Shown here in pieces: positions 5,123 to 52,006 of a DNA stretch of 64,000 nucleotides. A program made the translations under genes and the position numbers. The notes beneath the pieces were generated by a model. It was not told the DNA's origin. It made no database searches and saw only the letters and a program-made list of their open reading frames with translations. The stretch is from the NCBI GenBank assembly GCA_947034895.1, contig OX344763.1:3226501-3290500 (forward strand), in the 5' to 3' direction. Every line of letters begins with the position of its first letter. Position 1 is the first letter of the stretch. Origin of the DNA: Rhytidiadelphus loreus (taxonomy: Eukaryota > Streptophyta > Bryopsida > Hypnales > Hylocomiaceae).

Positions 5123-5446
5123 TTATCCTCGGGTCGAAGATAATCACCACCGGGACAACGTTGAACATCAGTCTACAAAAGCTAAGAACCCAAAAGACTA
5201 ATGAAAAACCCGCGTTTCAGTAAAAATTATCCTCGATTCGAGGATAAAGAACAACGAAAATTACACAAATACAATATACATAAATAATAATAAAAAACAC
5301 TTATCCTCGGCTCGAGGATAAATCAACAACTGAGACCCAAAAAAATATGAAAAAGTTATCCTCGAGCCGAGGATAAACCAATGAACAAGACACAAAAACA
5401 ATAAAATAAAAAAATAAAAAAATAGTTATCCTCAAGGCGAAGATGT
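5123..5446. repeat. Cluster of five 21-bp palindromes, TTATCCTCG-N3-CGAGGATAA
   Basis: Copies lie at 5123-5143, 5227-5247, 5301-5321, 5356-5376 and 5426-5446. The second, third and fourth have perfect 9-bp arms around a 3-nt centre (att, gct, agc). The first and fifth each have changes in the right arm. The A-rich DNA between copies is not conserved, so the palindromes are separate sites rather than units of a longer tandem repeat. A sixth copy is at 5603-5623. Confidence 0.9.
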
Positions 5447-6372
5447 TCCTCTCCCACTTGCCCAAGAGGATATTGCTCCCCCTCCTCCTCCTCCTATGGA
5501 TCAAGAACACGGGTCCTGTCTTCCAATTGGATCAGATCAATAGATCCAAGAAGAGATTGCTCCCTCTAGAACTAGGACAGAAGGAGCTAATAATGTTGTG
5601 GGTTATCTTCGAGGCGAGGATAATTTGAGCCACCCCCCTGCATTGGAGGCGCAAGCGGAGTTAGTCCCAGAGACACAAGAAGAGGGTGATGTTGTAACGG
5701 ATCCTATCTCCCCTCTGACTGAGCCGCATGTACTGGAGACGGAGATAGAGTTCGAAAATCCCCCAAACGACGACGAAGAGACTGTTGACTATGGGGATTA
5801 TTTGGATGATGAGTTCGGCCAGGTACTCTCTCGTCCATCCTCAGACCCCTATAATATTTCATGAGTCTGTCCAATCACTGCAATGTGATGTGATGGATGT
5901 TTGTTTTGGCTTCCTTCATGATCATATTTATAGTGAGAGACTCTCATGTCAATTCCTTCTGTTTGATAGGAGGAAGTGTACAATCTCTGATTGTGAAGCG
6001 TGGAAGAACTGCCACTCTGTAACTACGTTGTAGCATAGTGTAGATACCAGAACGGACTGTAGTTGGTACTTGTATACAATCGGCTAGAGATCAACAAAAT
6101 CGTTAGACCGGGTGTATCACAAATTATTTTGAAATAAATATATGTCAAACTTTTCTTCAATGCGTGTAGTGTCTAATGAATTGATATTGTCCATGTTTGT
6201 ACCCAGCGCGGACAACTTAGAAGTGTGCACCGCCCGTTGGCACTCAAACAATCACTTAACGGAGGGGTTCTGCAGTTGCTTAGTGGGGTTCAATGTTTTT
6301 CTCCGTTTTATGGATCGCCTGATTCTGCCTTTCAACAGGTAACTACATCTCTTTCGTGTTTTGTTTGATTAG

Positions 6373-7194
6373 GTAGTAACGGCTGGTTGCAAAAAGAGAG
6401 TACTGTGGACTGTGTCCTCGTTAGTGGTCCAACCGCGACAGAAGTGGTTGAATATCGTGTTCGATTTGAACGGAGTACTGTGTGAAAGCCAGGGTCAAGG
6501 GCCCTATAAGAAGAAAAAACATTACAAAGTCCGAGATAATATATTCTCCCATCGAACCCCCACCCTCATTGGGACGAAGGCTGCCTTCGTTCGTCCTAAT
6601 GTGCGCGAGTTCTTAGACGAGGTTTCAAAGATTTCAAACCGCGTCGTAGTTTGGAGCTTCATGTTCAAGAAGACGGTGGAGCCCGTTGCAAGTTTCCTCT
6701 TCCAGAATTGCAAGGCTCCCTACCATATCCTAGGTCAGGACAACTGCAGGAGGGTAGAAACCTCAGAAGGGAAATTTCTTCATCAGGTTGGGAGTCCGTG
6801 GAAGACTCTGCTCTTCAAAGTGCTTGATGAAGAATTGTTCCTGTACCCTCAGGATCCCAACTCCTTCAACAAGGACAACACCATTCTCATTGATGATTCT
6901 CCGCAAAAGGGCATCCTCAATGAGAACGAGAATTGCATATACCTTGAGAGTTGGAACCCGTACATGCGTGGAGACAATGTGCTCGTCGGCACTCTCATTC
7001 CGTGGCTGAAGAAACTACACGAGGAGTGTCTACTCGGACGCCTTCGTGAGTTCGTAGATTGGAACCACATAGGTGTGGCACCCTTGGTTGCATCAGATGA
7101 TCAAACCCATTATATATTGGATGGGATGAGGATGTCCGCCAAGGCATTCGAGTCCCGATTCGTATTGCGGGGGATGAATCTAGTGATTGAATAA
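6373..7194 (+). CDS. FCP1/NIF-type HAD phosphatase-like domain (element 1)
   Basis: About 260 residues resemble the catalytic domain of FCP1/SCP-type phosphatases, which dephosphorylate protein Ser/Thr such as the RNA polymerase II tail. Motif I reads VFDLNGVL: the nucleophile Asp is kept, but the second Asp of the usual DxDx[T/V] is Asn. Motif II is VVWSFM and motif III is ILIDDSPQKG. Blocks shared with the copy at 36853-37668 include KWLN, FVRPN, LGQD-C, DDSP-K and IPWL. Overall identity looks low but the order is the same. DLNG-type FCP1 homologues occur in plants, and whether they are active phosphatases is unclear. The exon start is chosen from the acceptor gattag|gta; caaaaag|aga at 6397 is the alternative. 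Confidence 0.75.
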   Translation, partial: VVTAGCKKRVLWTVSSLVVQPRQKWLNIVFDLNGVLCESQGQGPYKKKKHYKVRDNIFSHRTPTLIGTKAAFVRPNVREFLDEVSKISNRVVVWSFMFKKTVEPVASFLFQNCKAPYHILGQDNCRRVETSEGKFLHQVGSPWKTLLFKVLDEELFLYPQDPNSFNKDNTILIDDSPQKGILNENENCIYLESWNPYMRGDNVLVGTLIPWLKKLHEECLLGRLREFVDWNHIGVAPLVASDDQTHYILDGMRMSAKAFESRFVLRGMNLVIE

Positions 7195-7388
7195 GAACAA
7201 CGAAGGAAGAAATAGACTTCTCAGTGTCTCAGTCAATCATAGAATTCGTTGTACATTATTTTTGTGAATACGGATTTTTATATACATTTCATTCTTATGA
7301 ATTAGTAAAATTTTGAAATTTAATCAAGATTTTTGGCCTCTTTCGGGGGTACTATTTTGTTCAACATGTGTTTGTCTTCTATGTTGAG

Positions 7389-7610
7389 TTATCTTTGGGT
7401 CAAGGACAATTGTAGAGGATGTGTGTTATCTTTGGGTCGAGGATAATTGTGAAAGATGTGTTTTATCTTTGGGTCAAGGATAATTGTGGAAGATGTGTGT
7501 TATCTTTGGGTCAAGGATAATTGTGAAAGATGTGTTTTATCTTTGGGTCGAGGATAATTGTGGAGGATGTGTGTTATCTTTGGGTTGAGGATAGCTATGA
7601 AAGATGTTTG
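7389..7610 (+). repeat. Six-unit 37-bp tandem array derived from the element 1 palindrome
   Basis: Units start at 7389, 7426, 7463, 7500, 7537 and 7574, an exact 37-bp period. Each begins with a 21-mer (ttatctttgg-gtc-Naggataa type) that is a left-arm-degenerate form of the upstream palindrome, followed by a 16-bp spacer (ttgtgRaagatgtgtg type). The array lies between the FCP1-like exon and the tail exon. Confidence 0.9.
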
Positions 7611-7629
7611 TACACTTCCATTGCTGTAG

Positions 7630-7917
7630 GTTGGAGGATCCGTTCTACACTTTTTGCAACGGAGGGAACCACTGACGAGGAGCTTACTGACTAGATCGGA
7701 CGTGTCACTTTCAATGACGTCCGGCTCGATTGGAAGGAGCTTCGTGCTGTCCTCTTATTCTAAACCTTACCTCCTAGGCTCGACCACCGATGCAACTTTG
7801 GCGGCCATCGACTTCTCGAAGGGGAATGTGGAGGAAGGCGTGGTAGATAGCCCACCTAGTAGGGGTCCCGTGAGGACCCCGATTTTCTCACCGTCGCCGA
7901 TGAAGAGGGCCAGCTCC
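7630..7917 (+). CDS. Tail exon homologous to the element 2 tail, truncated
   Basis: After an acceptor at gctgtag|gtt, an open frame encodes a Ser/Thr-rich, low-complexity protein segment. The match to element 2 (35989-36624) covers an LGS...DFS...GVVDSPP-R-P...SPSP pattern with the same spacing. This supports a real conserved coding unit following the FCP1 domain. The frame runs out of homology at about 7917, where DUF247-locus sequence starts. No known domain is recognised. Confidence 0.55.
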
Positions 7918-8230
7918 AAATGTGGACATTAAGCATTGTACCAATCTAGTAAACGAGCTATCTATCCAAACACTTGGCCAATTGAATTCACAAGATAAAA
8001 TTTCTATTGCAAATCCCCTTTTCTTCATGGAATTTTTGGCTTCATTTTATTTGAATCAATGTAGCCACCATCACCAAAACAACTACAATTGTAGACAAAA
8101 TCACCCAAGGCTTAGAACAAAATATGATTCAAAACTCACTCCAAAGTCTATATATTCTATAATCACATCTACTCACTATTGCTTCTTTCATATCATGTTG
8201 TGTTTTGGAAGAAGGAATTCGCACTAAACC
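7918..8230 (-). pseudogene. DUF247 C-terminal fragment (unit 0 of the tandem locus)
   Basis: This sequence is homologous to 15612-15950, the 3' end of the first long DUF247 gene, including 3' flank and C-terminal codons. It has lost about 30 bp (the segment encoding the end of the membrane helix) and carries other changes. Element 1 abuts it on the left and a repeat element on the right, so it is a dead remnant. Confidence 0.75.
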
Positions 8231-8240
8231 TTTGTGCAAA

Positions 8241-9005: not shown

Positions 9006-9009
9006 TTAA

Positions 9010-35030: not shown

Positions 35031-35034
35031 GTCT

Positions 35035-35752: not shown

Positions 35753-35988
35753 AAAACAAGGAACTTAGACTACCAAATCTATCAAAATTGAACTGATTGC
35801 ATCCAATGGATCTAATACAATCTCCAAGCATCATGTCTATAATGTTCGTTGGATTGTCGCTACCTACATCAATTACACTATATATATATACTTGGCGACT
35901 ATGTAAATGGCAGTGCCTCAGAACTATGAACCATTCTAAAACAGTTGACCGTGTCTATTCTAGAATATACATTTATCATAGGGAACTA

Positions 35989-36624
35989 CTACTGGAGCGA
36001 TTTACTCTTCATCTTCTCCAAGGCCTTGAGAATTTCAGGCCCACGACTATATCCTTCTGCAATTTTTCCACCCTCGCGGATGTGTTCGAGCCGTTGTGCC
36101 CTCAAGGACTGTCGCTCCTAGGAATCCCATGATAGCACTGAGCATTGACTGCTTGAAGGTCCACCATACTTCCTCTTTCTCATATCGCCTCGAGACAACA
36201 ACCTCTGCCGCGGAAGTACGGTCGGATCAACAAGGTGGGCTATGTCATCCTCGTGTTTCATTTCCAGGACCGGGGACAAAGTTCCTAGTGCAGACATAGG
36301 ATAATTGGCGTCTCCATATAGCTTCCTTTGAATCCCCTTCTCTGAAGTATACGGATCCAGAGTAGACAGAGAAGGCTCTCTGGAACGTAAAGGCGACGGC
36401 GAGGCTGACACTGGGGGGCGAGGTTTCCGGTCTGGAGGGCTGTCTACCACCCCATCATGAATGGGTTTGGTAGAGAAATCCATAGAGGAATTCACCGTGG
36501 GTGCCGAGCCCAAGAAGTTCCCTGTGTTTAGGATGATGTATTGTCCGTAGTCAAGAATGGAGTCCTCGGACGCTCGGCAATGGTGACCAACACTTGGTGT
36601 CCGGCAGGTCGAAGTGCTGACCAT
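35989..36624 (-). CDS. Element 2 tail exon (exon 6), low-complexity then charged
   Basis: After acceptor GTTTCAG|ATGGTC (36624), the frame runs 212 codons to a double TAG at 35991-35986. It encodes a Ser/Pro-rich stretch with GVVDSPP-R-P...SPSP, which aligns with the element 1 tail exon, then a basic segment and a charged helical end (ERQSLRAQRLEHIREGG after the amber codon). An in-frame TAG at 36120-36118 splits it, yet coding-like sequence continues beyond for about 42 codons. No known domain is recognised. It joins exon 5 in phase 0. Confidence 0.55.
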
Positions 36625-36852
36625 CTGAAACACAGCCAAAAACAATTAGAACCCATTTAATCAAGCATTTCACCGTAGCAAGGTGAACTCAAACAAGAAC
36701 CACTGAAATCGAGGTTTCTCAACATTGTCACAATCCATCTTATCATACAACATTTCAGCTCGACCCTAGCTGAAATGCAGAATCCTATAGACTATTTGTG
36801 ATTTGCGTATGCAAGTGCTTTAAATTCGCTCAATTCCAGCTAATCTACATAC

Positions 36853-37668
36853 CTCGGTAGGCCTTCCTAACTAACATAGACTCGTTGATCCTCGCACAAC
36901 CTCCATGAGCTTGTCATACTCGCGACGATTCCTCTCGTCACAAAGCATTCGTCGTCCGATCCTCCCTTGCTTATTATCGCGAAATAACTTCAGCCCCACA
37001 TCGCAATGGACGTGCAATTGCTGAAACCAGGGTAGTAGTGATGCGAGGAGGAAATTGTCCCTGTCGCCATTTCCCCGGTTACTCCAAGACTCTGCGAGCA
37101 CTACGTTCTCTGCCTTGTTCATTATGTGCTTACGCGGGCTGTCATCTACTATCACAGTATTTTCAGTAGTGAATGCCCCCCCTGGCTGCCCGAAAAGCAC
37201 GTCTAAGTTCTTTAAGAACAAGTCCTTATTCGTGCCGGGTTCCTTGAAGGATGTAAGCCTTCCAGATCTATCCCTGCATTTGACGGTCTTGCAGGAGTCC
37301 TGCCCGAGAACTAGGACTGGCATATGCCCGCCCCTAAAAAGATATTCACAAATATCCTCAACTGTGGAAATCTTCATGGAACTCCACACTGAGATGAATG
37401 CTATCTTTTCTAGCTTCGCAAGGAAAGTTGAGCAATTGGGCCGCACGTAGACGGCTTTCGGACCCACAACGGCGGCCATCGTGGCAGAGTGTGGCTCCGA
37501 GCGGTTGCTGAACTGCCTGATCGACCCCTTTGACTTCCAGTCTTCGCTCAGATATAGAATGCCATTGAGATCCAGGACGACGTTGATCCACTTCTTCGTC
37601 AACCCAGACCTCAATGGCCGATCGACGCCCTGCGACATCCCCCCACGAGCTACTGGAGGGCCGGAATC
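36853..37668 (-). CDS. FCP1/NIF-type HAD phosphatase-like domain (element 2, exon 5)
   Basis: The acceptor TTTTTTTATCAG|GATTCC at 37668 and donor ACCGAG|GTATGT after 36853 are both strong. Motif I is VVLDLNGIL (second catalytic Asp replaced by Asn), motif II is SVWSSM, and motif III is VIVDDSPRKHIMN. Shared blocks with element 1 are KWINVV, VYVRPN, VLGQDSC, DDSPRK and LPWF. FCP1-family enzymes remove phosphate from proteins, but the missing acid/base Asp makes catalysis doubtful, so a binding or scaffold role is possible. A TAG at 36873-36871 follows SLC, and the frame stays open for six more codons to the donor. An internal ATG at 37638 could start a separate protein. Confidence 0.75.
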
Positions 37669-37823
37669 CTGATAAAAAAAGGAGGAAAGCGCAACCAGTT
37701 ATCAAACGCGAAACTGGCACATTACGGACGCCACACAAAATCCAAACGACACACCACACCGAATCCTGGTTAAAATAGACAATCGAATACATCCTGTATT
37801 TAGCAAGAAAGATCAATTTGTAC

Positions 37824-38026
37824 CTCCCGTTGGGCGTATTCACAGAGTTGTTCGGCTTCTTGTAAATTTGCAGGTGTACAAACAGGGCTACAGGCATTTG
37901 CTTCCGATGTTGTGGCGTCACCTCTTAGTTTGTGGTCAACGTATGGAATGCCGCTGGGTGGCAATGGAGGAGTAAGAGCAGTGGGATGGCACACAGAATC
38001 ATGCAATTTCTCATCATTTGAAGGGC
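37824..38026 (-). CDS. Linker exon (exon 4) between coiled coil and FCP1-like domain
   Basis: Acceptor TTTGTATTGCAG|GCCC (38026) and donor CGGGAG|GTACAA (37824) bound 203 nt, open throughout. The upstream donor is in phase 1 and the exit is in phase 0, which fits both neighbours. It encodes a Pro-rich segment ending in a charged helix (LQEAEQLCEYAQRE). No domain is recognised. The equivalent exon in element 1 is 6207-6338, with no clear sequence similarity. Confidence 0.55.
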
Positions 38027-38274
38027 CTGCAATACAAAATATTGTGAACCATTTCTCTGTGAGAATTGTATATTACAAACTCAGAATCTGAGTGTCAAAA
38101 CACAAAATTCAGTTAAAAATCGACAAACTCTACGGTTCTCCCCATTGATGGTGGGGCTCCGCCAAAATTGAGTCAGTCTACAAAAACTCTACAACCGAGC
38201 GGTCGCTATACAAGTTAGCTCGAGTCGAGCTAAAACTACAGAAAAATAGAAATGGAGTTATCATTGGGCACAAC

Positions 38275-39196
38275 TTGTTGGTGGATCTCCAGTGGGCAGG
38301 GAACCACTTCCGAGTTCCATCTCGGAAGCATCCACAGTCAGGTTGTGCCCAATCTTTACGGCATCCTCTGCCGTTGACGTTGCTTCTGCTTCTTCTTCCT
38401 TGCTCTCCGTGAATGCCTTCTCCAGTTCCTTGTCTAAGGAGGTCTCCGACATGATTTCCTCCGATGGGGGAAGAGGCGTTGATATGGGAGACTCTAGCGG
38501 TATCGGAGGCACCTCATTGACGATAAGAGGGGGAGTTGATGCATTGCTGTTGTGGGAGCCCGATGCCTGGCCTAGCAACATCTGAGGTAGAGAGGTAGAC
38601 GCGGGTTCGACAGATAAGAGTGGCTTCACTCCAGATCTATCCAACAACAAGGCTAAAATTTCCCTGTTCGCCCTTGCTTCTTCTCGGTTCGCCCTCGCCT
38701 CCTCCCACATCCACTCATACGTGTTCTTGTTCATTTCTATGCTTGCCTCCCGGTCCTGTGCCTGGTCTGCCCTCAATTGAGCCATCGCGAGATCGTTTTT
38801 CTGTTGTGCGATGGCTGCCTGCGCTTGCATTAGGGTGACGGACTCCATGTGCGCTTTCTGCAGCTCGGCAATTTGCTTCACAACACTTGTAATAGTCTCC
38901 CTCTTTCGCTTTTTCTCCGGCCTACCCGTTCGCGTTGGTGTCAAAGGAGTGTGGATAGCAGGCGGCAGCATGGAAGACGCAGAGGACCTTGGGATATCAG
39001 TAAATGGACGACTTGTCGGCGTTGGAAAGTCATCCAACCCACCATCACCGTCAAATTCATCATCGTCATCCTCCTCCTCTTCCTCCTCAGACATATCCTC
39101 ATGATCATCGAAGATGGGTACAGGCCTCCTCCTCCCTTGACCTCCTGGAGAATCATTGCTGGACCGGAGCTTTCTTTTGGACGACGAGGGCTCCGA
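38275..39196 (-). CDS. Acidic and coiled-coil linker (second part of exon 3)
   Basis: Directly after the TAG at 39199-39197, in the same frame, comes a basic nuclear-localisation-like patch (SSSKRKLRSS). It is followed by a long acidic run (EEEEEEDDDDEFDGDGG, from about 39090), a Pro/Thr-rich stretch, then a heptad-like helix with Ala/Gln/Glu and the repeated unit EEARANREEARANRE. The exit donor ACCAACAA|GTTG (38275) gives phase 1. It could begin its own protein at the ATG at 39094, or continue the methyltransferase-like reading through the amber codon. No enzymatic domain is visible. Confidence 0.6.
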
Positions 39197-40871
39197 CTAC
39201 GAGCCCGGAGCGGCATCTAAGGACTGAATTTTGTACGCATTGTCAAGGAAGTCGCTCTTGTCCAAGGTCATTGCCTTACCGCAGATCTCCTCCCACCAAC
39301 TAGAATCCTCTAATGGACCAGTGGCATATACATCGACACAACTCATCTGCGTCACAAAACCTCCAATGTTAGAGAACTTGTGAGACTCTACAGCGCTATT
39401 TAGGTCGATTCGAGCTAAAAGAACATGCTTACAGATATGTACAAATATATAAGCAAACTGCATTTCTTGGAGTACGGTGTAACTGTGATTCAGCTCGATT
39501 CGAGCTAAAGTGATAGGAAAAGACTTATGATGGCAGCACAGGTGAGTTTTCCGCCAGCGAATCCCGAGAATACAGACATTCCCGGATTACAAAATGTCCT
39601 CATCAACCACAAGTAAAACTCCATCCGCAGCTCTAAGTTATTCAACCGATACTCTAGTTCATTGTATGAACGCGCCTTCAAGTACCTTGCTGTTTCTGGA
39701 CAATGGAACTCTTCAGGAATATCAATCTTCATGGCATTCATCGGATTCTGCAAGAACACGAGAGAAACCTTTTTTGGTGTCCTGGCCGCCGTGAGATCCC
39801 CGAGCCGATCATTCTTCCCCGCATAATAGTCGGCATATGCAATGTCGTAGGTGTCCAGAACCTTATTGGTCTCATGTATCTCAAGACCTGCGCTTGTTCT
39901 TTTTCATCAGCACATATGAAGAGCCAAGCACAAAGATCTTCAACTTTGGGTTCTTTCTTAAACATTGAGCTTAGCACTTCTACAAAATATGGATTGTCCA
40001 CAGTGGACTTCTCTTTCTTATTGATCCCTGGCACTGTACGAAAGTCTATCACCCCCAGACCCATTCGCTTCGCGCTCTCCGCCTTCCATGCACCCGAGGG
40101 CCAGTCTGAGAGACGATTCATGTTGTCATCGTAAGTCCTATGATGACCTGTTGCCGTGGGCTTCACGAACTTGTTCTTTTGTTCTAAAAAGACTTGAAAG
40201 AAAGCATACGCTTCAGGGGAGAGCTGGGCGCATGTTTTGTTCCTCGATCTGACCAGCTTGGCTTCGCTGAAGTATCTCTCCCCTGGTCGATCGAGGAGGA
40301 CGTCCATGGTGGCTCTTGAAAACATTCTATCTTTCTTGAACGCCTTCCAATTTTCTACAATGATCTCGTTCTTGGCGTTCAACAATCCCAGTTCAGGATT
40401 GATTTGGTGAAGTTCCTTCTTCACTAGATGTTTCCGTTTTCGTCTCTCAGCCCACTCCTTCGTTGTGTAGCAGCTATCAAGCACCGACGTTATTGCTTTA
40501 ATTGTTACCTTCAGATAACAATGTTTCCGCCCCTCACCCGTTTGGTTTAGAATATGGTTGGCAAGTTTTGCCAGCTCTTCGTAGCTTAGATTCCCCAAAA
40601 ACTTGAAGAATTCACGACTAAGCATACAATTATCTGGATTCCAATCCGTTCTAGCGTTGTACAACTTCTCCGTCTCCGGATTAAAGAGCTCTCCGTGTGC
40701 GGCAGCCGTGATAACATCCCTCCAAAGATTATATACATCGTCTGGTGCGGTGATTAGCTTCAGCTCGTTTGTCAACTTCAGCTTTTCCTCTTTATCCTTG
40801 GTTTTAGACAACTTTAGGTTCTTATTTACATCAATCATCGAAAATTGGATGTAGATAGCCTTTTCGAATTC
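39197..40871 (-). pseudogene. Methyltransferase-like region (exon 2 and first part of exon 3), frameshifted
   Basis: Exon 2 is 40871-39525 (acceptor TGTCTACAG|GAATTC, donor ATCATAA|GTCTTT) and exon 3 starts at 39360 (GGAG|GTTTTG). Exon 2 continues exon 1 in phase 0, and a 1-bp loss near 39882 shifts the frame; with that base counted, the 2-to-3 junction fits phase 1. Near the end, FCNPGMSVFSGFAGGKLTCAAI followed by a strand ending MSCVDVYATG resembles motif I and the next strand of beta-class DNA N6/N4 methyltransferases (FxGxGTT...AA...G.D). No canonical DPPY motif is seen; VFLQNPMN may be a degenerate form. The region stops at TAG 39199-39197. The rest is charged and unrecognised. The methyltransferase call is tentative. 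Confidence 0.45.
39872..39892 (-). other. Frameshift site in element 2 exon 2
   Basis: Upstream frame ...EKEQAQVL and downstream frame IHETNKVLDTYDIAYADYY are both coding-like and meet here one base out of step. A splice would need an intron of about 26 nt, too short for a plant. A 1-bp deletion is the simplest reading. Confidence 0.6.
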
Positions 40872-40975
40872 CTGTAGACAGCAAGCAATGCACAATGTTA
40901 AGCATGTCGGGTTTAGCTCGATTCGAGCTAAATTACATCCTAAACCACAAACATCATACAACCTGGGAGACGTAC

Positions 40976-42427
40976 ATTGAATTTGTCTCGGTTGCGAATG
41001 TTCTCTATTGTCCGTCTCATGCTCGATGTTGTCCCAACGGAGGAGACCTCCTTCGGATTTCGGGGCCGACCCATGGCTAACCACACTGACCGGGCTCCCA
41101 AAATGTTCGTCACCCAGGACGGCTGCGTAGCCACAAAGTGATTTGTGCGGTTATAATAGGCGGATATATTGCGCAACTTTTCTGCATTCGCAGACCACAC
41201 AATGAAACAATCCCACTTCCGGAAATGATTCTTCATCTCCTCGGTTATACCGTTTGCGTCGTCCAACATCCACTTGCTGGCTTCCACGTTGTGCTGCCCG
41301 TTGATAATGTAAAACTTACCCTCTTGGATTGCCTCCCATGTAGCTGGCTTCTCCGTGTGACCGACGGGCATTACGCATAGTGTTTGTTTATTTGTTTTGT
41401 CAGGAATATTTAGAAGCCAGGTGACCATGTCCTCGACAATTCGATTCTCTTTTGACCGTATGTTGAATGTTGAGGGGGCAGCAATCAGTTTCGAGATGTC
41501 TATCTCCTTCTTTTGGCCGACTGGAAGCACATAAGCGTCTTCGCATGTTGTCCAAAATCTTTGATAAACCTCGCTCACGGATTTGAAGTCCATTTTTTTC
41601 TCGGTCTTTCGTGAATGAGGAACATTCTGCATTTCGTCCACATAACTCCCCTCAACGACTTCCGATCCCTCTGTTGATTTTGTTGGCATCACCCGGTTTG
41701 ATCTGGAAGCGCCAGACTTCTTTCCATGCTTCTGAATGGAGGGTTTTGCTGGCTTTTGTGTCGATCTTTTCCCTCTGCCTGACCCCGACTCAATAACTGA
41801 GTTACGTTTGGAGCTCTCACTCCCACCTGGGGTACCTGTATTCAAGGAGATGGAACGAGCTTTCTTCAACTCGTTCTGTAAATCTAGCTTCCCTTTCAGA
41901 GTGCTCAAATCACTGAACATGAATCGAAGCTTAGCAACAAGGCGCCTGCAATTAATCGGTGTACCATCCTTGTTATGCCACTCTTTGTTGTCTAGCTTCT
42001 TTTCAAGCTCTTTTACCTCATCCACGAAAATTGAAGTTTCAAGACTTTTGAGGAAGGGAGTCAAACTAAATGGAATGAGCATGGAGTCCAAAACTATCGT
42101 AAAATGATACTGCTGGTCTCTTGGAATCTCCGGGACCATTGTCATGCATTTTATCTTAATGACGGGATGAGCGTCCGCTTCAACATCTTTGACTTTCTCC
42201 TCAAAGGAAAGCTGTATATAAACGGTTGAGTTTTTGAACTTGTAGGAGAAAGACAGGTCGTTTTTGAACGGGATGATCTGGAAACTCCAGCCTTCGACCT
42301 TGTCCGGGTCTTTAAACTCCCAGAACTCTCCGTCACTAAGCATCATGTCCTCGGCATTAGTATCTGCTGGATTTTGGATCTCGCACCGCTGAAAGTATTG
42401 CTCGAGGCTTGCAACTTGCTCTTCCAT
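40976..42427 (-). CDS. ParB/sulfiredoxin-like domain protein (exon 1)
   Basis: The ATG at 42427 opens 484 codons to the donor AATTCAAT|GTACGT (40976), phase 0. Residues about 306-415 look like a ParB N-terminal domain: IDISKLIAAP-FNIRS at the start, then a helix, a strand (LCVMPVG) and the signature GKFYIINGQHNVEASK in place of the usual G-hhR..A. ParB-type domains bind nucleotide and, in bacteria, clamp onto palindromic parS DNA; relatives occur fused to methyltransferases in mobile elements. The N-terminal 200 residues are unrecognised, and about 200-290 is a basic Ser/Lys-rich linker. The protein continues into exon 2. Palindromes lie just upstream of the start and in the next intron. Confidence 0.7.
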
Positions 42428-43091
42428 CCTACATGATAGTTTCTAGTTAGATGATGTGTGTGTTCAACTCGAATCGAGCTAAAATGACAATTGCTCTCTT
42501 ATTTGCTGAATAATTTTTATTAGCATTGTTGTTGTTCTTTATTTCATATCTTGAATTGCGGTTATCGGACATGGTCGTATGCTTTTATGTGAAAATTGTG
42601 TGCGGACATCTGAGACTGTATATGATGAATACTTGCATTCAATTTGACTACTTGTTTTCCTATCTTTTCTGTTGTTTTAGCTCAGGTCGAGCTAAACCTA
42701 CTGAGACTGAAGTGATTAATTCTTTATTTAAAATGAATTAGTTATTGCTCTTTGTTTCTGGTGTAATTCTAGGTTTTTAATAGTTAATTTCTATGCTATG
42801 TGTTTTTTAGTTAATGTCTTTTAATGATTTTGCGCTTAATCATATACTAGGTTAATTTATCTTTTCCTTGTAAGTGATTCAGCTCGATTCGAGCTGAATC
42901 GTGTTATTGGTCTTGATATCTTCGTTCATTCGTTTTTTGTTCTGTGTGTTTTTTTGTAACGTTACGTCATAATCTTCTAATGGAGAGTTGTAAGGTGTCC
43001 ATACAGTTTAGCTCGAGTCGAGCTAAACTGTATGTGAGTACATAATTTTTTTTTGATTTATTTGATTTTTAGCTTACGATTGTTTTTTGAA

Positions 43092-43164
43092 GCTCTGATC
43101 GTGGTTTTCCTCTGCAATTTAGCTCGGGTCGAGCTAAATTGTAGGGAAGAACCACGACCAGAGC
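43092..43164. repeat. Extended 73-bp inverted repeat centred on a palindrome
   Basis: 'gctctgatcgtggtt' at the left pairs with 'aaccacgaccagagc' at the right, enclosing the palindrome at 43118-43138. The whole could fold into a long hairpin. Confidence 0.8.
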
Positions 43165-43199
43165 GTATATGATGTGGAAGTCATTTTTACTGTGATTAG

Positions 43200-44667
43200 G
43201 TTTAGGGCTTCATATCTACACTTCCTAAAGTTCTTTAGTTTAGGACTTCTAATACTGCACTAGAATTCACTTCCAGACGAACTTAGCACTTATTTTTCAA
43301 GCCTAAAACTTTAGGGTTTTCAGACAGGAATCCAAAAACAAAATTCTTTTATTCTTATGCAGTCTGGAATGCCAATTTCTTCACCAAAAATATGCTACTG
43401 TAGCTCTTCAATTATAGAAACATGCGTATCTTCTGAGTACGAAAACATAACACGTTCAATTGGCAAGTTTATGACACTTACCTCAAGGAAAAAGGTGTAC
43501 AATCTTGAACACCTTACTGTATACACAGCTAGATCCAAAATCTGTAGGTTACAAGGCATTTGCAAGATATCAAAACACTATTGAAGGTGACAAATGAATG
43601 AATCCAACGATTAGGTAATACTACAATTTATTTAGGGTTCCACATTTACAATAAAGAAATTCATGAATTAGAAATCTACAGAGCTGGTACATAAAAATTC
43701 ATGAAGCTTCATATCATTCACGTAAACTAATAGAAAGTGAAACTATGAAACATAACCTGTCAACAATGAAGAAGACAATATGAAGCATTCAAGCAATGAA
43801 ACAATGAACTAGTAGTTTCCTCACCTGTATGTTAAAGTTGCAGGTGATGCACTTCGTGATGTTCAGCGAAATAATCCTACTGCATCCGTAAACTGTGGAA
43901 TATTCCAATCATGATGATTTCAGCAATACCGAAATAAAAAATTTCAGAACACGGAATCCCAAATGACGAAGTGAAACCCGAAACTCCAATGTCGATAAAG
44001 CACACTGCAGAAATTCGGGGGACAAAGCAGAAATTCACGGCATGCAAACATTCTGCTCAAAGAGGTTTAAGAAGCCTACAATTGATATCAGGCAAAGAAA
44101 TTTAGAGAAGGAGATGACGTCCAATACATGTACACAGTCACACGGTGTAACACAAACTTGAAACTAGAAGGTAAGAGATTGAACTTACAACGTTCAATTG
44201 ACACTTTCTTCACGCCAGCCACAATCATCCTAGACCACGGAGCTGCACTTTCTTCAAGCCAGAAATCTGCACAGACCACCAATTAGCAAAGATCAGGAAT
44301 CTCAACAGGCCATGAAGCTCACCACGAGAAACAAGAAAACCTAATTCAAAGCGAAACACTTCAATTGGCGTTTCGGAGACGCCCTAAACCTCCAGCTGAA
44401 ACACCTCACTCACAGCAAAACATTTCAATTGCGCCAAACATGTGACAAATCCTGACAAGCAAAACCCTCGAACACAAACCCTGACTAGCCAACCCTTGAA
44501 TTGGCAGACCCTGACGGCAATTTCAACAAACAGATTGCGAACCCTTGCAAAAGCCTACTTAACGCAAACCCTATACGCAATTGCCGATCCAATTACTGGG
44601 AAATGCGAGAACTGAACTGAACGGAATTAGAAGATCAACGCTGGATTGGAGAAGCAGTAACAAACCT
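43200..44667. other. Intron-like region upstream of the ParB-like gene
   Basis: No palindromes or coding exons are visible. If the leader at 44668-44964 is real, this would be mostly a long 5' intron of the minus-strand gene. Confidence 0.35.
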
Positions 44668-44964
44668 GAAGTCAACCCGAAAAAGAAGCGCTGGAATGAT
44701 GTCCGAAGTTGAAACCGCACCCGCAAACTAGCGCGCCCCGACGCTCCAATGACGTCCGACGATGAAACCGCACCCTCGAAATGAAGAAACAATGAACGTG
44801 CACCGACGAGGTGGAAGCACACAGAAACGAAGAACACGCCCCGACGAAGTGGAAGCACAGAATCACGTACACAAACAGTCTCTACAAGTGGAGATCGGAC
44901 GCATCGTGTACTACTCGGAAACTGAGAATACACGGAAGAGAGACAGGTGCGCACCAAACCCTAG
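44668..44964 (-). promoter_or_regulatory. Candidate 5' leader of the minus-strand element 2 gene
   Basis: The sequence is moderately GC-rich and pyrimidine-rich on the minus strand, with a telo-box-like TAGGGTTT at 44957-44964 and a donor-like TTCAG|GTTTGT at 44668. The open frames in it are short and repetitive (the 'gcttccacctcgtcgg' block occurs twice). It is placed upstream of the ParB-like gene, so I read it as a non-coding first exon. Confidence 0.35.
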
Positions 44965-45112
44965 CTCCCCGTTTACTCTGTTGCAATAGATAGAATCCTC
45001 ATCCGTAAACTGTGGTCTTCATCCAGAGACCCGGCCCCTCCCCTTACCGAAGATTCATGTTATCGAAGATTCATCTTACCTTCATCTTACCGAAGATTCA
45101 GGTTATCCTAAT

Positions 45113-45337
45113 TTAACCCCTTAACGCCTCAATCCTTTTTCAAAATTTGGCACATTTTTGCTTATATTTTTGTACGGTAATACCATTTACCAAAATTTCA
45201 TGAAATGGAGCATAAAATAAAGTTGTCTTTTCAAGATTCAAGTGTTACTTTGGATGATTGACAAGGTTGTTGGATGAAATAGTGATGCAAACCCTCTGTT
45301 CATCGCCAGAATATGGACGTCGAAGTGTTTAAGGGTA
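45113..45337. mobile_element. Possible small inverted-repeat element
   Basis: The start TTAACCCCTTAACGCC and end (reverse complement) TTTACCCTTAAACACT are loosely similar. The interior is non-coding. No clear target duplication is seen, so the call is weak. Just to its left, 45040-45110 has short repeats of 'cgaagattcatNtta'. Confidence 0.3.
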
Positions 45338-48300
45338 AAAACTTTGCTCATCATATACTCATCCATTATTGGTAACCTCTACTACTGTCATGTTTGTTTT
45401 TTAAGGAAGAAATACTAAAGAAGTTTGTTTAAACCATAAATACCATAAAACTTCCTTTCGTAAACTAATAGTTCATGTTGGTAACTGCGGTCAATTTTGT
45501 AGGTTGATATCACCTAATATCTAAAACCTTCTTCATATGGAATTCCATGTTGAATGCATAGTTGCATTCCTTAATTTCTGAAGAGGGATTGAAAATGAGT
45601 CATTTTCTTCTTTTAAGTACAAACTAGTGCCATAGAAATTATTCTTTTCTTTACCATGTGAATCAGTGACTTTGGAAATACTGAAAACATTCATTTGTGT
45701 ACTACCTTTGACCAACTAGAGCAGACCTCACAATTTGACAAAAACAAATTACAATGATTAATCGCAATGCAATTTGGCTCGATATCTTCTAACAACCTTT
45801 GGATTGAGAACATGCTTATCTTTTTCGTTGGTGATGATGGTAATTATTTCTTTCCTTCATTGTTTGACATAGTCAATGTATATTTTTTAAACTAGAAGTA
45901 TACATTATAGATCCAACAATTCTATACAATGGTTCCTTCAAGACTAGAATAAAAAAAAAAGGACAAATGCACTTCCATGCTATGTAGTAAAAGAAATTGT
46001 CATAAATAGCCCATAAGAATGGGCACTTGTTACCTTATGATCTTGTACAAAATGAGGGGAACTACACTTCAATTATTCTTTTGTGTATGAAAAAGTGTCC
46101 AAGTCTTAATTTTTGTTTAGCTTACATTTATTGAAAGCTTTTTATTTGTAGAAATCCAAATATTGCCCTAAACTTTGCTAAATCGTAAACATTGGTCACA
46201 TTTCATTAGATTAGAGTTTAGGGAACATTTTTTTGGGCTACTATCCAAAATTTACCTCTGAATAGATTACTCAAGAAAGACACTTTTCAAATATTATTTA
46301 TTAATTAACTGAGTATAAGTATACGATATACCTAAAAACAACTTCCACAAATAAATAATCTTAGAAAAATAAAAATAAAAAGCATTAAATTCATATATTT
46401 TGAAATCTACATATAAGCCAAAAGAATTTTTTGAAAAATACAAATATTGATGGAAAATTTAATGTAGAAGGAGCTTTAAATTTTTGCCTTCATATTCTTC
46501 ATCTAAAAATGTTGGTAAAAGGAGTAAATACAAATATAATGATGCATATGAATATAAGAATGTGATTCAAAAGTTCTTGTTAGGAACTTTTTGTAGAAAG
46601 AAATTATAATTATTTTAAATTTTACTTTATTGTAGAACTTTACATTTTCTTATGTTTAGAATATTAATCCATTCAGAAGTGAATGGATAAACTCTACATT
46701 TAAAAGATAAAGTATGAGGTTCATAAAGAAACAATGAAATATTTCATTTGTAATTTTGAAAGAGTTTTAATTCTTGAAATATTTTTCTATAAACTTTCAT
46801 TGGATGAAATTAGAATTTGTAAAATGACTACATGTTTTCCATATGTTTTAGATGAAAGTTTCAGATGCCTTTTGATCGGACCCCTTACATATTCGAAGGT
46901 AGGAAATTCTTGTATTGAATACACTTTGAGGTTAACGAAACCCTTTTTGAAACACAAACCATTTTTAGATTATTTTTAGATCAATAGCCTTTTAATACTA
47001 TTTTATTCACTTAAAAATACAGGATATTGAGGTACACATCTGTATGGGATGTGAACAGATGTATCGAAGGCAATATTAAATCCAAACTATATTTTAGTCA
47101 TTCACTAAAATCAGTCTAGAATTGTTATGAGGAAATTTATTTGTATGATGCTTTCTGTAATATTCTAATAAATATTATATACATATAGAGAGAGAAAGTT
47201 TTTTTTTAAAATAAAAAAATATTGGAACTATTTTTCATTAGGGAGGAAATTTTTGTGTTCAAATAATGAACAAAAAATGTTTGATTATTTTAAACATGAA
47301 AGGTTTACTCCCTTTCAATGATACATGTTGGTTTCTATCCACTAAAAGTTCCATTTCCAACATAATAGTGCATGTAAGGTGTCTCACTATTAGTGCATGT
47401 AAGGTGTCCTTCTATTACGCCATGATTATGGCTTCATGCTAGAGTCTATCATTGATTTGTAATAATAGTGCATGTAAAGTGTCCCACTTTCATGCAATGA
47501 TTATGGCTTCATGCTAAAGGCCATCATTGATTTGTAATGAAGCCAACTACAAACATAGAGAAATACACAAAGACCCTTATCAAAATTATGTTGGTTTTTG
47601 AAAGTTTGTATATTTCAAACTTAAGTCGTAACTCATATGAGGTTCTACATTTATAAAATAGATGAGCTTTTGTCTTCATTACTTTTTGAACATTACAATT
47701 CTAAAATAAAGGTTTCATTCTAAGATTCATTTCTTTGGTAATTATAGGTAATTCACTATGAATTTTTGGTGCTAACAAACGCGAAGTTCGGAAATTATTC
47801 CCAACTTACCTCCAAGAATGACTACCAAACCATTTTGCATTTCATGAGTTTAACAATGTGCATTTTTTGGATCTTTCACGAATCCAAGGTTCACTATTAT
47901 TTTGGGTGGTTGTCTAGGAGAAAAAAAAATACCCTAAACTATATGTGCTATTACAACCCACATCTTTTAAACTTCTACATTTTTTTCCCATCAAAAAATG
48001 TCTTATATTTCCTCAATTCTAGAATAATAGTTGTATAAACTACAACAAAGGGTTCTGACTTATTTTTGGGGGGTTTATTTTGTACAGAGGGTAAATGATC
48101 ATGTCTTTTGTTATTTTTTATTTAATCTTTACATTTCTTTTAAGTCCTTCATTTTATTCCCCACCCCATTTTTTTTTCCATGACTTTTGGAATTATAGTT
48201 TTCTAAACTACATTGGAGATTCCCTAGAAAAAAAATTCGTTCACGTTGTATGAAAAAAAATTAGCATTATTTATGTGTAGTTCTGTACTATTGTAATTTA

Positions 48301-48635
48301 GTCTTAACTTTATTTCCAACTTCATTTTTCTCATCCAAGAGTGTGTATTACTTAAAGAAGTTGGAGAAAGTTAGAAAAATAAAAGATGAATCATTCAACA
48401 TTTCAAATGTTTAAGGATCTCATAATTCAGAATATTCCGCCACTTCAAAAGAAATAATTTTTTTAATTAAAAAAATGCCATGAATGCATCAAATTGTAGT
48501 AAGAGCAATAATCTATTCATTTGTAAATGCATGAAATGAATCTCTACATTAAAGGCAAACAAGAATGAGTAGAATTTCTTTTTGGTTCTATCAATAAGTT
48601 GCACAGAAAAAAAAATAAGGATAATAGCAGGTTTA
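45338..48635. other. AT-rich central region of element 2, no gene seen
   Basis: Only short unconserved open frames occur. A diverged direct repeat of about 100 bp lies at 47370-47545 ('gtgcatgtaaNgtgtc', 'attatggcttcatgcta'). Confidence 0.45.
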
Positions 48636-48643
48636 CAAACTCT

Positions 48644-49226
48644 CTAGGGGAGGACACTCTCACTACATTTAGGGTACCTACGTGCGGCGGTGGAAAAAGT
48701 AATTCATGTAATTCACCTTGAATAAACTATAATTTCATTCTAAAATTTTGAGCTTTGTTTAACAATGACTAAAGGTTTCTATTGACAAAAAATTCAATTC
48801 CAAATAACATAAGATATATTGTCTAGAAAGGGTTGAAAAATGAACTAAAATGGCATGTTCTCCAACTAAAATATTTATAGAGCTCACATGAAGATGACTA
48901 TTGCATCAATATTCAACCAAAATAAACTTTCAATAGAAAGCTATTCTATATAATTTTTTTTTCATTTTTCAAATTTTTTTTCTTATATAATATAGAGGTG
49001 TGAAAGTTATTTTCAGCTTTACAGTGTATCTTTTTTCTTCAAAAATTTATAACTAATTACTATTAGCACAAAAAAATACCAATAATTCAAAACATAAACT
49101 TATAAAGTAGTAAAATCTATCCATAATTTTTTTTTTGAAAAAGAAATTAAATTTTAAGGTGTATTACTTGTTTTACTTTTTCCGCCGCACGTAGTTTGCT
49201 AAAACATAGGGAGTGTCCTCCCCGGG
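48644..49226 (-). mobile_element. 583-bp hAT-like MITE, copy B
   Basis: Ends CTAGGGGAGGACACTC and GAGTGTCCTCCCCGGG are flanked by a perfect 8-bp duplication 'caaactct' (48636-48643, 49227-49234). It is the reverse-orientation homologue of 23753-24336 and is nested in element 2. Confidence 0.88.
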
Positions 49227-49234
49227 CAAACTCT

Positions 49235-50070
49235 AGTAGTAATTGCTTTGCAAGTGGAACATGTTCATTCATTTTTTCATGTATATCATAAGAATCACTA
49301 ATTTTATGGCTACTAAAATCACATTTCCTTACAGCTAACAATTAGAGTAAAGATATAGAGTACATGAAAGTAATTTCTTCATTTCTGATTTCTGATTTTA
49401 AGTAAAATACACACAAAAGTAATTTCTGAATTCATCAGTAGATGAAATTTCTATTTCTATTGATTATTGAAGCCTATCTAGAAGTATTTATATCATATTT
49501 GAAACTTTGGAGAAGCTAATTGCATCAATGAATGACTTTATCTAATGCTTGGAGCACTAATTTTAAAAACTTAATGAAAGCACGCATTTTTTTATTTTCC
49601 AAGGAAAATTTATTATTGCCCCTCACTTCTAGAAGTGTGCACATCATTTGTAAAACTCAATCATGAGAATTTACTTAAAGTAGCCATTGTATTCAATAGT
49701 TCTTTCCAACCATTTTAAATAATACATTAGTTGTTAAAGTGTTTTGGTTAAGAATAAATTGACACAGAAGTTGTTAATTTTTTGGGAGGTTAAATTCATA
49801 TTCATATTGAAGCATTGAAGCAATTAGATGATTTTGAGCATTCATAACAAGTTATTCAAAGGATCTATTGTATTTAGTACTTTGATCCAATTTAAATAGT
49901 ATAATATATGCAGTGTTTTCTTCTTAGATAAAAAATTTACACACGACGTATACATTTTTCGGAGGGTGGCATTTTAGTTTTTTAGAAAGCTTGATAGTGC
50001 TTAGATCATAAAAGAAACAATTAGGGGACTCGTAATTTGCAAAAGTTTCATTTTATTTCATTCAGATCCG
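49235..50070. other. AT-rich stretch, no gene seen
   Basis: No open frame, repeat or palindrome stands out between the MITE and the telomere-like run. Confidence 0.45.
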
Positions 50071-50077
50071 GACATTT

Positions 50078-50105
50078 AAACCCTAAACCCTAAACCCTAA
50101 ACCCT
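50078..50105 (+). repeat. Four perfect AAACCCT telomere-type repeats
   Basis: This is either an interstitial telomeric tract or a multimeric telo-box. A TATA-like box follows about 100 bp downstream, which favours a promoter role. Confidence 0.8.
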
Positions 50106-50205
50106 ACAGAAAACATGGAACTTACAAAGTGGGACTTCCTTTCATTATTATATGCGCATTATTCTTTTTCTGGACTGTGGCGATGGATAAAACATTCCCG
50201 CTCCC

Positions 50206-50213
50206 TATAAATA
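50206..50213 (+). promoter_or_regulatory. TATA-like box upstream of the DUF7869-like gene
   Basis: 'CCCTATAAATAAG' lies 100 bp after the telo-box tract and 1.86 kb before the ATG at 52074. A leader with at least one intron (containing palindromes) would be needed to connect them. Confidence 0.4.
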
Positions 50214-50596
50214 AGATGGCGTAGACAATGAAAGTCCATCATTACTTGAAATAACCTGGACCCCTTTTTTGGAGTTCAAACAGGAAAACCGCACGAAATA
50301 ACAATGAAAATGCAAATAGTCTTTGAACTTTGTGATTTAGGAATCTGGCATTATTGGTAGAAGGGCACAATACCTGAATTGGAAAGAGTAGGTGAACGTT
50401 AATATTACGAATGCCCTGCAGCCACGATAGTCTTCAAAAGTCAACAAGTCATCATGAGAGGAATCCCTCAGTAATAGACAAGGCCACAATTTTCGTGGCT
50501 TTACTTTATGTATAGTCTCCACTACTATCATGATTCCTGGGTTTTTCAAAATTGAAAGTTATGTGGTTGAAAACGCGCGATGAATTGGCGCTCTTC

Positions 50597-50607
50597 TTTT
50601 CCCGCGC
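50597..50607 (+). promoter_or_regulatory. E2F-like site TTTTCCCGCGC
   Basis: It matches the E2F consensus TTTSSCGC and lies between the TATA-like box and the coding sequence. Expression linked to S phase is a possible reading, but one site in a 64-kb window is weak evidence. Confidence 0.3.
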
Positions 50608-51175
50608 AAGAAGTTGTGTGCAAGTGACCATCCCATTTGCAAACACCTCTTCCGACCGTACTCCTCATCTCTATCAACGTTGGCGTTCATTCGTATCTTG
50701 CGCAGCTCCTTATTAGACTTGTGTCGTTACGCCGTGTGAATTCTGTGAGGAGTTTGTTTATTGTTTTGCTGTATTCTCCCGTCCTCTTCGAGAAAGCATT
50801 TGTTGCAAGCAGTTTGTGGTTAGTCATTCAGACCTGTGCGGTCACTTTTACTTGTCCATTCAACACAATGTATTCGATGCGGCGCTTACACGTTACCAAT
50901 ATTCTTTCACTGTCAATGACTTGTACAATGTGTTTTCTCAACTTCTGTGTATTAGACTCTATCATCAGTTGTAAATGTACAACTTCCGTCAAGCTCCATT
51001 TCGATAGTTTATTGTACAATGAATCTGTACCTGTGTTTGAGTGTCTCATATTTGTCGCCGGAATTTACGGGCCATTGAATGTCGAATTATTTGGGAATAA
51101 CTACGTAGATGTTGAACTCTGGAAATCACGGAATGTTTTAGCCTGAACTGTCTTCTTTGCATGACTTCATCGCAA

Positions 51176-52006
51176 TTCAGCTTGATTCGAGCTAAATCAA
51201 CACATGAGATTCTCTTTAAGACTAACGTCATTACAAATTAACTGAACTCAAGCTAAATGGAGATCAATCACTTCTAGGATTAATTTTTTAATAAGTGATT
51301 CGGAATGAATTATATTAGATTTCATTTGGCTTATACATTTGTGAATTGCAGAACATAATCTATCTATATTTGCAGTTTAGCTCGATTCGAGCTAAACTGA
51401 TACATTACATTTTGGACTTGCCTAAATAACAATATTTAAAATCATGAATTTCTTTATACTCTGACGATGTCATACATAATTCCTATTATGAGATTTGGAC
51501 ATTGAAAAAGGTCCTATATTTAATATTGCAGTTCAACTCCATTCGAGCTAAACTGACATATGGCGCACATCATCACATTCTGTTTCGACGTCTAAATCAG
51601 ACTAGACTGATTATGTGATATGTCAGAACTATTGCAAGATCCAACTTCTGATCCAAAATCATTATGAAAAAATATCAAGAATGTTTAACAGATTGAAATT
51701 CAACAATGTAAAAGAGGATTGGTTCTGAGAATGCAAGGGACTAGACCAGCAGTTTAGCTCGATTCGAGCTGAACAGCTGGTTCGGGCGTTGGTATTTCTC
51801 AGAAGCAAATATTTATTCCAGGTTTAATACCCAATCGTTTTGAAATTCTTTCTTGTTTACTATATTCTACAGTCGTACAGGTTACATTTGTTCCCTATTA
51901 CATTGATATACTAGTAGTCATCACGATATGATATCATGAGAGATATTAGTTCTTTTCTGTATCGCAATATTCATTCGGAATTAAATTTAGCTCGAGTCGA
52001 GCTGAT
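51176..52006. repeat. Five or six 21-bp palindromes upstream of the DUF7869-like gene
   Basis: Copies of TTTAGCTCG-N3-CGAGCTAAA type are at 51176, 51378 (perfect), 51532, 51753 and 51986, with a weak one at 51238-51257. They lie in the non-coding leader or intron immediately before the ATG at 52074, mirroring their position before the ParB-like gene. Confidence 0.88.

Follow-up and report, generated by a model that had tools for sequence, protein, structure and literature searches.

The closest known systems to the moss elements described here are VANC with the VANDAL elements, which are Mutator-like, and, judged from the part of its description considered here, the Ectocarpus transposon Sola1-1_Ec32. 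The targets of VANC in Arabidopsis VANDAL elements are short motifs, private to each of the related families and read by a protein of the element; they are 8-9 bp long, non-palindromic and arrayed in one orientation, lie in non-coding DNA (introns, intergenic stretches and termini), frequently as tandem repeats, and differ between related elements (PMC5735166). In the part of its report used here, Sola1-1_Ec32 is a giant transposon of about 21 kb with a ParB-like domain gene opposite the transposase; this gene has a predicted DNA methyltransferase domain, and according to the authors' suggestion, proteins of this kind may act on the transposon that encodes them, binding and modifying it (PMC12477816).

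We analysed 64,000 nucleotides of the moss Rhytidiadelphus loreus (the window; contig OX344763.1, positions 3,226,501 to 3,290,500), which hold part of one element (element 1) and the whole of another (element 2). As in VANDAL/VANC, the moss elements have private motifs in their non-coding parts, partly in tandem. The original prediction knew of no plant transposon with this layout; in VANDAL/VANC, introns and upstream regions hold private motifs, and the layout therefore has a precedent (PMC5735166). Unlike in VANDAL/VANC, the candidate sites are palindromes of 20-21 bp, the target-site duplication has 4 bp and the proteins are DUF7869 and ParB-like/NIF; a Pfam scan of 10 reading frames gave only DUF7869 and NIF above the cut-off, and neither the Mutator-like transposase nor the VANC protein (DUF1985) of that system. 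Element 2 is similar in size to Sola1-1_Ec32, as described in the part of the report used here, and likewise has its ParB-like gene on the strand opposite the transposase; the moss protein differs by an added FCP1-like part, and its homologue P0097 gave no Pfam match to a DNA methyltransferase domain, with that region modelled below pLDDT 50. Binding sites go unmentioned in that part of the report, and the moss palindromes are concrete candidates for sites at which ParB-type transposon proteins may, as proposed for the alga, bind their own element (PMC12477816).

Bacterial ParB and KorB offer a further parallel, as the moss element combines a ParB/Srx-fold domain with repeated palindromes (parS/OB in bacteria). 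The KorB operator is TTTAGC-S-GCTAAA, which resembles the outer part of the element 2 palindrome. In contrast to these systems, the moss sites belong to a eukaryotic transposon, are longer and occur many per element, and the usual ParB Arg motif appears to be replaced in the moss protein by GQHS/GQHN, found at the expected position of the CTP-binding motif. In CACTA (En/Spm) elements, the accessory protein TNPA recognises repeated internal motifs; the moss element shares such motifs, an accessory reader being only proposed, but TNPA sites are subterminal, whereas element 2 is free of E2-type sites (at up to 6 mismatches) over 2.1 kb from its left end and 3.7 kb from its right end. A literature search found no paper on DUF7869, none joining moss, NLI interacting factor and transposon, none joining Zisupton with Physcomitrella, and none joining palindromic with anti-silencing.

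Structure and genes of element 2

Element 2 is a DNA transposon with 13-bp terminal inverted repeats, an AGTT target-site duplication and an empty site on C5, where a copy of the flanking repeat lacks the insertion, with a 4-base overlap (a random control involving C5 assumed its length). A 4-bp duplication is compatible with Sola1. Close copies occur elsewhere in the same 407-Mb genome; the four closest (95-99%) start exactly at 34617, and copies stop at 55723 or 55724.

34617..55723, no strand: element 2, whole DNA transposon, 21,107 bp, ends from copy boundaries
34613..34616, + strand: target-site duplication AGTT, left copy, 4 bp
34617..34629, + strand: left terminal inverted repeat AACATCATATTCA, 13 bp, perfect inverse of 55711-55723
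55711..55723, - strand: right terminal inverted repeat, 13 bp, perfect inverse of 34617..34629
55724..55727, + strand: target-site duplication AGTT, right copy, 4 bp
52074..54959, + strand: DUF7869 protein, 961 aa, probable DDE/D transposase (Pfam PF25273, E 2.7e-43; fold comparison)
40976..42427, - strand: ParB-like gene, exon 1 (homology; fold of homologue P0097)
39873..40871, - strand: ParB-like gene, exon 2, 3' limit approximate (homology to P0097/P0112)
39532..39843, - strand: ParB-like gene, next coding stretch, in a different frame (homology)
38264..39364, - strand: ParB-like gene, last stretch, coiled-coil-like region (homology to 39218 only; the remainder is open frame)
36871..37698, - strand: FCP1-like (NIF) domain exon (Pfam PF03031, E 1.4e-15)
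36118..36645, - strand: probable last exon of the NIF part (open frame; tail like that of element 1 by eye)

The DUF7869 gene is divergent from the ParB-like/FCP1-like gene, on opposite strands. Its product has an RNase H-like core with three conserved acidic residues, as in DDE/D transposases, and an N-terminal part with an HTH-like helix pair and Cys/His residues that appear conserved by eye. Intron 1 of the ParB-like gene (40975-40872) has GT..AG ends, and the last stretch of this gene contains an in-frame TAG at about 39197; in Physcomitrium patens, the NIF and ParB-like parts form one protein. The predicted fold of P0097 has a ParB/Srx-fold N-terminal domain, followed by helices of low model confidence. 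Against Pfam and PHROG, the ParB-like proteins gave weak matches (those in Pfam all below the cut-off), one of them to a ParB-like partition family at E 0.11, and sequence searches against solved structures returned nothing usable. No viral relatives of either protein were confirmed in IMG/VR; exact palindrome matches there (3 and 1 contigs) were single sites only and were taken as chance.

Palindrome types and their distribution

Element 1 carries TTATCCTCG-N3-CGAGGATAA, exact at 5227, 5301 and 5356, with 12 sites in the window at up to 4 mismatches, 6 of them in a tandem array; element 2 carries TTTAGCTCG-N3-CGAGCTAAA, exact at 40912, 43007, 43118 and 51376, with 15 sites of 21 bp at up to 3 mismatches. 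Two types in many copies had been noted beforehand; the pattern is confirmed and proves larger than first described. In five dinucleotide shuffles, neither type gave a site at 0-3 mismatches, and the means at 4 mismatches were 0 (E1) and 0.2 (E2). The features, palindromes and array being without strand, are as follows.

5123..5143: E1-type palindrome, upstream of the NIF gene in element 1 (pattern match)
5227..5247: E1-type palindrome (exact match)
5301..5321: E1-type palindrome (exact match)
5356..5376: E1-type palindrome (exact match)
5426..5446: degenerate E1-type site, 4 mismatches (pattern match)
5603..5623: E1-type palindrome, 1 mismatch, inside an open frame that may or may not be coding (pattern match)
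6373..7191, + strand: NIF domain exon of element 1 (PF03031, E 7.4e-15; 36% identity with its counterpart in element 2)
7389..7594: tandem array of a 37-bp unit with 6 degenerate E1-type sites (pattern match)
7630..7932, + strand: probable final exon of the NIF gene in element 1 (open frame whose tail was compared by eye)
36754..36774: E2-type palindrome (pattern match)
38214..38234: E2-type palindrome (pattern match)
39399..39419: E2-type palindrome, intron (pattern match)
39489..39509: E2-type palindrome, intron (pattern match)
40912..40932: E2-type palindrome, ParB-like gene intron 1 (exact match)
42463..42483: E2-type palindrome, ParB-like gene leader (pattern match)
42676..42696: E2-type palindrome, leader (pattern match)
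42878..42898: E2-type palindrome, leader, change in both arms, TTCAG/CTGAA (pattern match)
43007..43027: E2-type palindrome, leader, 7 more symmetric pairs outward (exact match)
43118..43138: E2-type palindrome, leader (exact match)
51176..51196: E2-type palindrome, DUF7869 leader (pattern match)
51376..51396: E2-type palindrome, DUF7869 leader (exact match)
51532..51552: E2-type palindrome, DUF7869 leader (pattern match)
51753..51773: E2-type palindrome, DUF7869 leader (pattern match)
51986..52006: E2-type palindrome, DUF7869 leader (pattern match)

The proposed 9-bp arms with a 3-nt centre need correction: most sites of elements 1 and 2 have R-N-Y at the centre, so the symmetry is nearer to 10-bp arms with a 1-nt centre. 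Symmetry also continues outside the 21 bp: of 180 flank pairs, 84 are complementary, against a mean of 57 in shuffles (1 in 10000 as high). Introns and leaders had been named as the main location, and in element 2 the 15 palindromes lie in leaders, introns and spacers, with 0/15 in homology-recognised exons, whose limits were set by hand; this count leaves out elements 1 and 3, where one site (5603, in the uncertain open frame) and several sites, respectively, fall in long open frames. Element 1 also carries degenerate, less symmetric copies and extends left beyond the window; there, the same TTATCCTCG palindrome accompanies a DUF7869 gene from a different lineage; homology comparison recognised no ParB-like gene in element 1.

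A third element, right of the window, has its own type, TTCAGACCG-CG-CGGTCTGAA, at 37 places (up to 5 mismatches), so that the 264 kb around and including the window hold three elements with three types. Two element-3-like palindromes lie away from recognised genes at window coordinate 84384 (84000-84700). That the sites would be confined to the elements was confirmed for the window, where 13/13 CTCG-N3-CGAG occurrences are inside elements 1 and 2; over the 264 kb, the outer 5 pairs show no more than 1 mismatch in 13 of 17, of which 11 are in the window's elements and 2 in element 1, 1.4-1.5 kb left of the window.

That the type follows the element also agrees with further DUF7869 leaders, of which 16/16 hold palindrome families with both arms spelled GCTCG, GGTCG or GCGCG; these leaders were hand-picked, non-randomly, from the 48 best matches to the window protein listed, of 2180 candidates. 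Sites were present in 20/20 leaders examined, which are not independent because some of the 16 are near-copies of one another. Equal frequency away from such genes was not observed, since related families of 3 occurred in 0/125 background tiles, compared at finder settings fixed after the leaders were seen and drawn outside four stretches (the three elements and window coordinates 84000-84700). The shared inner CTCG/CGAG is present in elements 1 and 2, but was rejected as the defining core: the half-site consensus, built from both arms pooled, differs in 7/20 leaders (GGTCG in 5, GCGCG in 1, ACCG in 1), and two lineages spell their half-sites, for instance, TTTAGCTCG and TTCAGGTCG. Common to the families is CG-N2/3-CG, from a list made without demanding CG.

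Palindrome divergence goes with protein divergence (Mantel rho 0.53; 52/5000 permutations as high; n=14), a test that rests partly on the distant elements 1 and 3 and on a finder that demanded CG near the centre. The predicted co-divergence is loose, because a DUF7869 gene on another moss contig, 54-55% identical, retains the element 2 type.

Candidate role of the palindromes

In our view, the palindromes are likely to serve a giant moss DNA transposon family as recognition sites private to each lineage, read by a dimer of an element-encoded protein. Such a dimer would read the inverted half-sites; the likeliest reader would be the ParB-like protein, followed by the DUF7869 transposase with its HTH-like N-terminal part. 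The sites would label the DNA as the element's own, for control of its expression or to shield it from silencing, as in VANC/VANDAL. Recognition of the ends by palindromes was rejected, as no sites lie near the ends of element 2, and the role is probably self-marking rather than guidance of end cleavage, because the sites are spread over both genes, in leaders, introns and spacers, away from the transposon ends. We tentatively propose a ParB-type system, in which ParB-like proteins would load on private parS-like palindromes in non-coding stretches, spread and keep the element expressed or unsilenced, while palindrome and reader would change together and split the family into mutually blind lineages in one genome.

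It is possible, if rather unlikely, that only the DUF7869 transposase binds the sites, as internal sites for synapsis or autoregulation, the ParB-like protein having another task. Element 1, with sites and a DUF7869 gene and no recognised ParB-like gene, agrees with this, as do the N-terminal helix pair with its Cys/His residues and the sites in every DUF7869 leader examined; however, end recognition needs sites at the ends, which element 2 lacks over the distances given above, and the introns of the ParB-like/NIF gene are also filled with sites.

Recognition of DNA by an element protein also has to be weighed against RNA hairpins in leaders and introns, acting in splicing, stability or dsRNA, which we regard as improbable. 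The non-coding, probably transcribed position and the symmetry past 21 bp are what such structures would favour, yet pairing suffices for hairpins, whereas one arm spelling is common to many sites of an element, that of element 2 recurs on another moss contig, and CG flanks the centre in the listed families. Functionless, tiny mobile or tandem-spreading repeats hitch-hiking in the elements seem very improbable: tandem arrays with 37- and 40-bp units, similar arrays among the E1-pattern places listed and the two palindromes away from recognised genes would fit, but homology-defined coding is avoided, each element has one private type, arm changes are mirrored, and background tiles hold no families of 3. 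That such palindromes arise by chance or are common to moss DNA at large is practically excluded and already contradicted by the controls, for single near-palindromes occur in 61/125 background tiles but related families of 3 in none, shuffles hold zero or hardly any sites, and the pattern count is 1781 versus 0 for the reversed pattern.

With these candidate sites and several palindrome types coexisting in one genome, a long-standing question becomes testable: how a transposon distinguishes its DNA from that of its relatives and its host, and how the sites of a DNA-binding protein evolve along with it. Physcomitrium patens, which is easy to engineer, has relatives of both the DUF7869 and the ParB-like proteins.

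Palindromes in the window and their placement

A sequence search of the window recovered both 21-bp palindromes (9-bp arms, 3-nt centre) as originally described; the feature is real, rich and larger than first reported. The E1 type, the spelling of element 1 (the leftmost element, NIF gene at 6373-7191), has 12 sites between 5123 and 7594 (≤4 mismatches), six of them held by a tandem array of 37-bp units absent from the earlier description. The E2 type, that of element 2, has 15 sites from 36754 to 52006 (≤3 mismatches from the strict consensus). Five shuffles gave no sites of either type at ≤3 mismatches. The centre is mostly R-N-Y in both elements. The symmetry continues past the 21 bp: for 45 sites at ≤3 mismatches from the window and the compared contigs L010, L011 and L012, 84 of 180 flanking pairs were complementary versus 57 (sd 6.4) with right flanks redealt, a level reached in 1 of 10000 re-deals. 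This extension is due to the E2-type sites, with little of it in the E1-type ones.

The E2-type sites occupy leaders (the stretches upstream of genes), introns and the stretch separating the ParB-like and NIF parts. None of the 15 touches the homology-defined coding stretches of element 2 (35% of the element), and the same was found for the eight sites of L010 (65.3% coding) and the eight of L011 (64.5%); these counts cover element 2, L010 and L011. Open frames of uncertain coding status contain one site of element 1 and several of element 3. The outermost 2.1 kb at the left end of element 2 and 3.7 kb at its right end are free of E2-type sites, and the rest of the window holds six matches to the E2 consensus, all at 5-6 mismatches. 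Across the whole 407-Mb assembly there are 1781 exact matches to the E1 pattern (reversed control, 0). The first 62 listed places form seven clusters (12-kb linking); uniform scatter gave a mean of 41.9 and never fewer than 31 in 2000 trials.

A further perfect palindrome, ATTGTCCCCTGAGGGGACAAT, lies at 8972-8992, and the right flank has a similar one (window coordinate 159027), clear of the elements' coding parts. An array of degenerate ~50-bp units with internal inverted symmetry occupies 23346-23577.

Element 2 as a DNA transposon

Element 2 (34617-55723; 21,107 bp) is a transposon by its ends, inverted repeat, AGTT duplication and genomic copies, and the proposed tie of the palindromes to mobile elements was correct. 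In a DNA search of its own genome with flanks, the four closest copies (95-99%) start exactly at 34617, related copies stop at 55723 or 55724, and copies of the interrupted host repeat break off and resume at these two positions. Each terminus carries one arm of a perfect inverted repeat of 13 bp, AACATCATATTCA, with AGTT on each side. In an uninterrupted host repeat on C5, the left part ends at 20012282 and the right part starts at 20012279, the 4-base overlap thus being the target duplication counted once; a second such copy (C3, near 3477160) fits this to about one base. A search with the DUF7869 protein (the probable transposase), in which 48 places were scored from 2180 first-look candidates, gave, besides the copy in the window itself, five places at 94-98% identity, a single one at 84% and the remainder at 78-80%, and by these sequences the family looks recently active and high-copy.

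The DUF7869 gene of this copy carries a 48-bp tandem duplication (16 aa, 52409-52513), where 24 aligned relatives have a gap. Inverted copies of one repeat, 93% alike, lie at 23755-24333 and 48647-49224; since the second sits within element 2, in its central spacer, it is a possible nested insertion.

Palindrome type across elements

With 100 kb of flank analysed on each side (264 kb in all), element 1 was found to extend left of the window, where its DUF7869 gene lies in opposite orientation and in two frames, 50% identical to that of element 2 and 62% to the relative P0033. Four E1-type sites lie beside the start of this gene (-1404, -1444, -1484 and -1927, counted from the window start), and three of the four are spaced 40 bp apart. 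Element 3, at window coordinates 132-157 kb, repeats the gene order of element 2 (NIF, ParB-like, DUF7869) in far-diverged form and has no E1- or E2-type site at ≤4 mismatches. A dedicated search for a palindrome of its own found TTCAGACCGCGCGGTCTGAA: of 40 places in the 264 kb at ≤5 mismatches, 37 fall within 128.6-153.6 kb. Of the other three, two are at 84.4-84.5 kb and one, carrying 5 mismatches, is at 28.4 kb; three shuffles gave 0, 0 and 1. The pair in the right flank (C3, window coordinates 84384 and 84488), near which no DUF7869, ParB-like or NIF match was detected, is perhaps a small derivative element.

Related palindromes were also present in all 16 further DUF7869 leaders (1.4-1.5 kb upstream, 16 of the 48 scored copies), spelled as TTTAGCTCG or TTCAGCTCG types, ATCAGCTCG, TTCAGCGCG, TTYAGGTCG with an ANT centre, or [AT]TCAGGTCG with other centres. 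Together with elements 1, 2 and 3 and contig L001, at least two related sites occur in 20 of 20 leaders and at least three in 19. Equal frequency away from such genes, which the original prediction had named as counting against it, was not observed: among 125 background tiles (1.5 kb each), 61 had one site, one had two and none had three, and none of 100 shuffled leaders had two. Of 102 leader sites, 94 have matching arms at position 6 and 95 at position 7, although both positions vary between elements. This agreement is partly inherent in site picking; the different mirrored bases of whole families are not. The shared plan is wider than proposed, approximately TTYAG-N2-CG-(2-3 nt)-CG-N2-CTRAA: CG is the consensus at arm positions 8-9 in 20/20 leaders, the CTCG core was too narrow, and element 1 (TTATCCTCG) deviates most.

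Where the source names an organism, DUF7869 and ParB-like relatives come from the mosses Physcomitrium patens and Ceratodon purpureus, most matches carrying no name. The window, C3:3226501-3290500 of the 407-Mb assembly, is likewise taken to be moss DNA. Contigs L001 (4.3 kb), L010 and L011 belong to AVDCRST_MAG81, a cyanobacterial metagenome assembly; they resemble moss DNA and are probably moss contamination. The DUF7869 protein of L001 is 54-55% identical to that of the window, with three TTTAGCTCG-type palindromes upstream of its gene and weaker ones past it. L010 and L011 carry a ParB-like gene (L010 the NIF part too) and sites of the TTCAGCTCG type, placed much as in element 2. This suggests that the sites are old and that a type can stay fixed as its proteins change, a point against tight co-divergence. 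The co-divergence originally proposed is thus loose, with a moderate correlation between protein and half-site distance across 14 elements (Spearman 0.53, as high in 52 of 5000 permutations; protein distances from ~150 residues).

A candidate element-encoded reader

The long, near-perfect palindrome, in which a change in one arm is mirrored in the other, points to a dimeric reader, and the spelling common to an element's many sites, across its two genes, points to self-recognition at the DNA level. An element-encoded reader, as first proposed, is a sensible guess and a candidate only. Against the ParB-like protein, the likeliest reader, stands element 1, where sites are present and no ParB-like gene was detected; element 1 may have been reduced, or the reader may instead be the DUF7869 protein. 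Speculatively, the CG steps could permit reading of CG methylation.

The claim that no described plant transposon has this layout gives way to a conceptual precedent, the Arabidopsis anti-silencing protein VANC and its VANDAL transposons. According to two reports, VANC21 binds non-coding DNA of its own VANDAL elements (introns, intergenic and terminal regions), where its targets form tandem repeats and differ between related elements (PMC5735166, PMC10398659). The placement of the moss palindromes, in non-coding parts and away from the ends of element 2, matches this behaviour.

Both NIF domains (37596-36976 and 6439-7059) carry a DLNG motif. As DxDxT is the usual motif of this phosphatase family, catalysis may be altered in elements 1 and 2.
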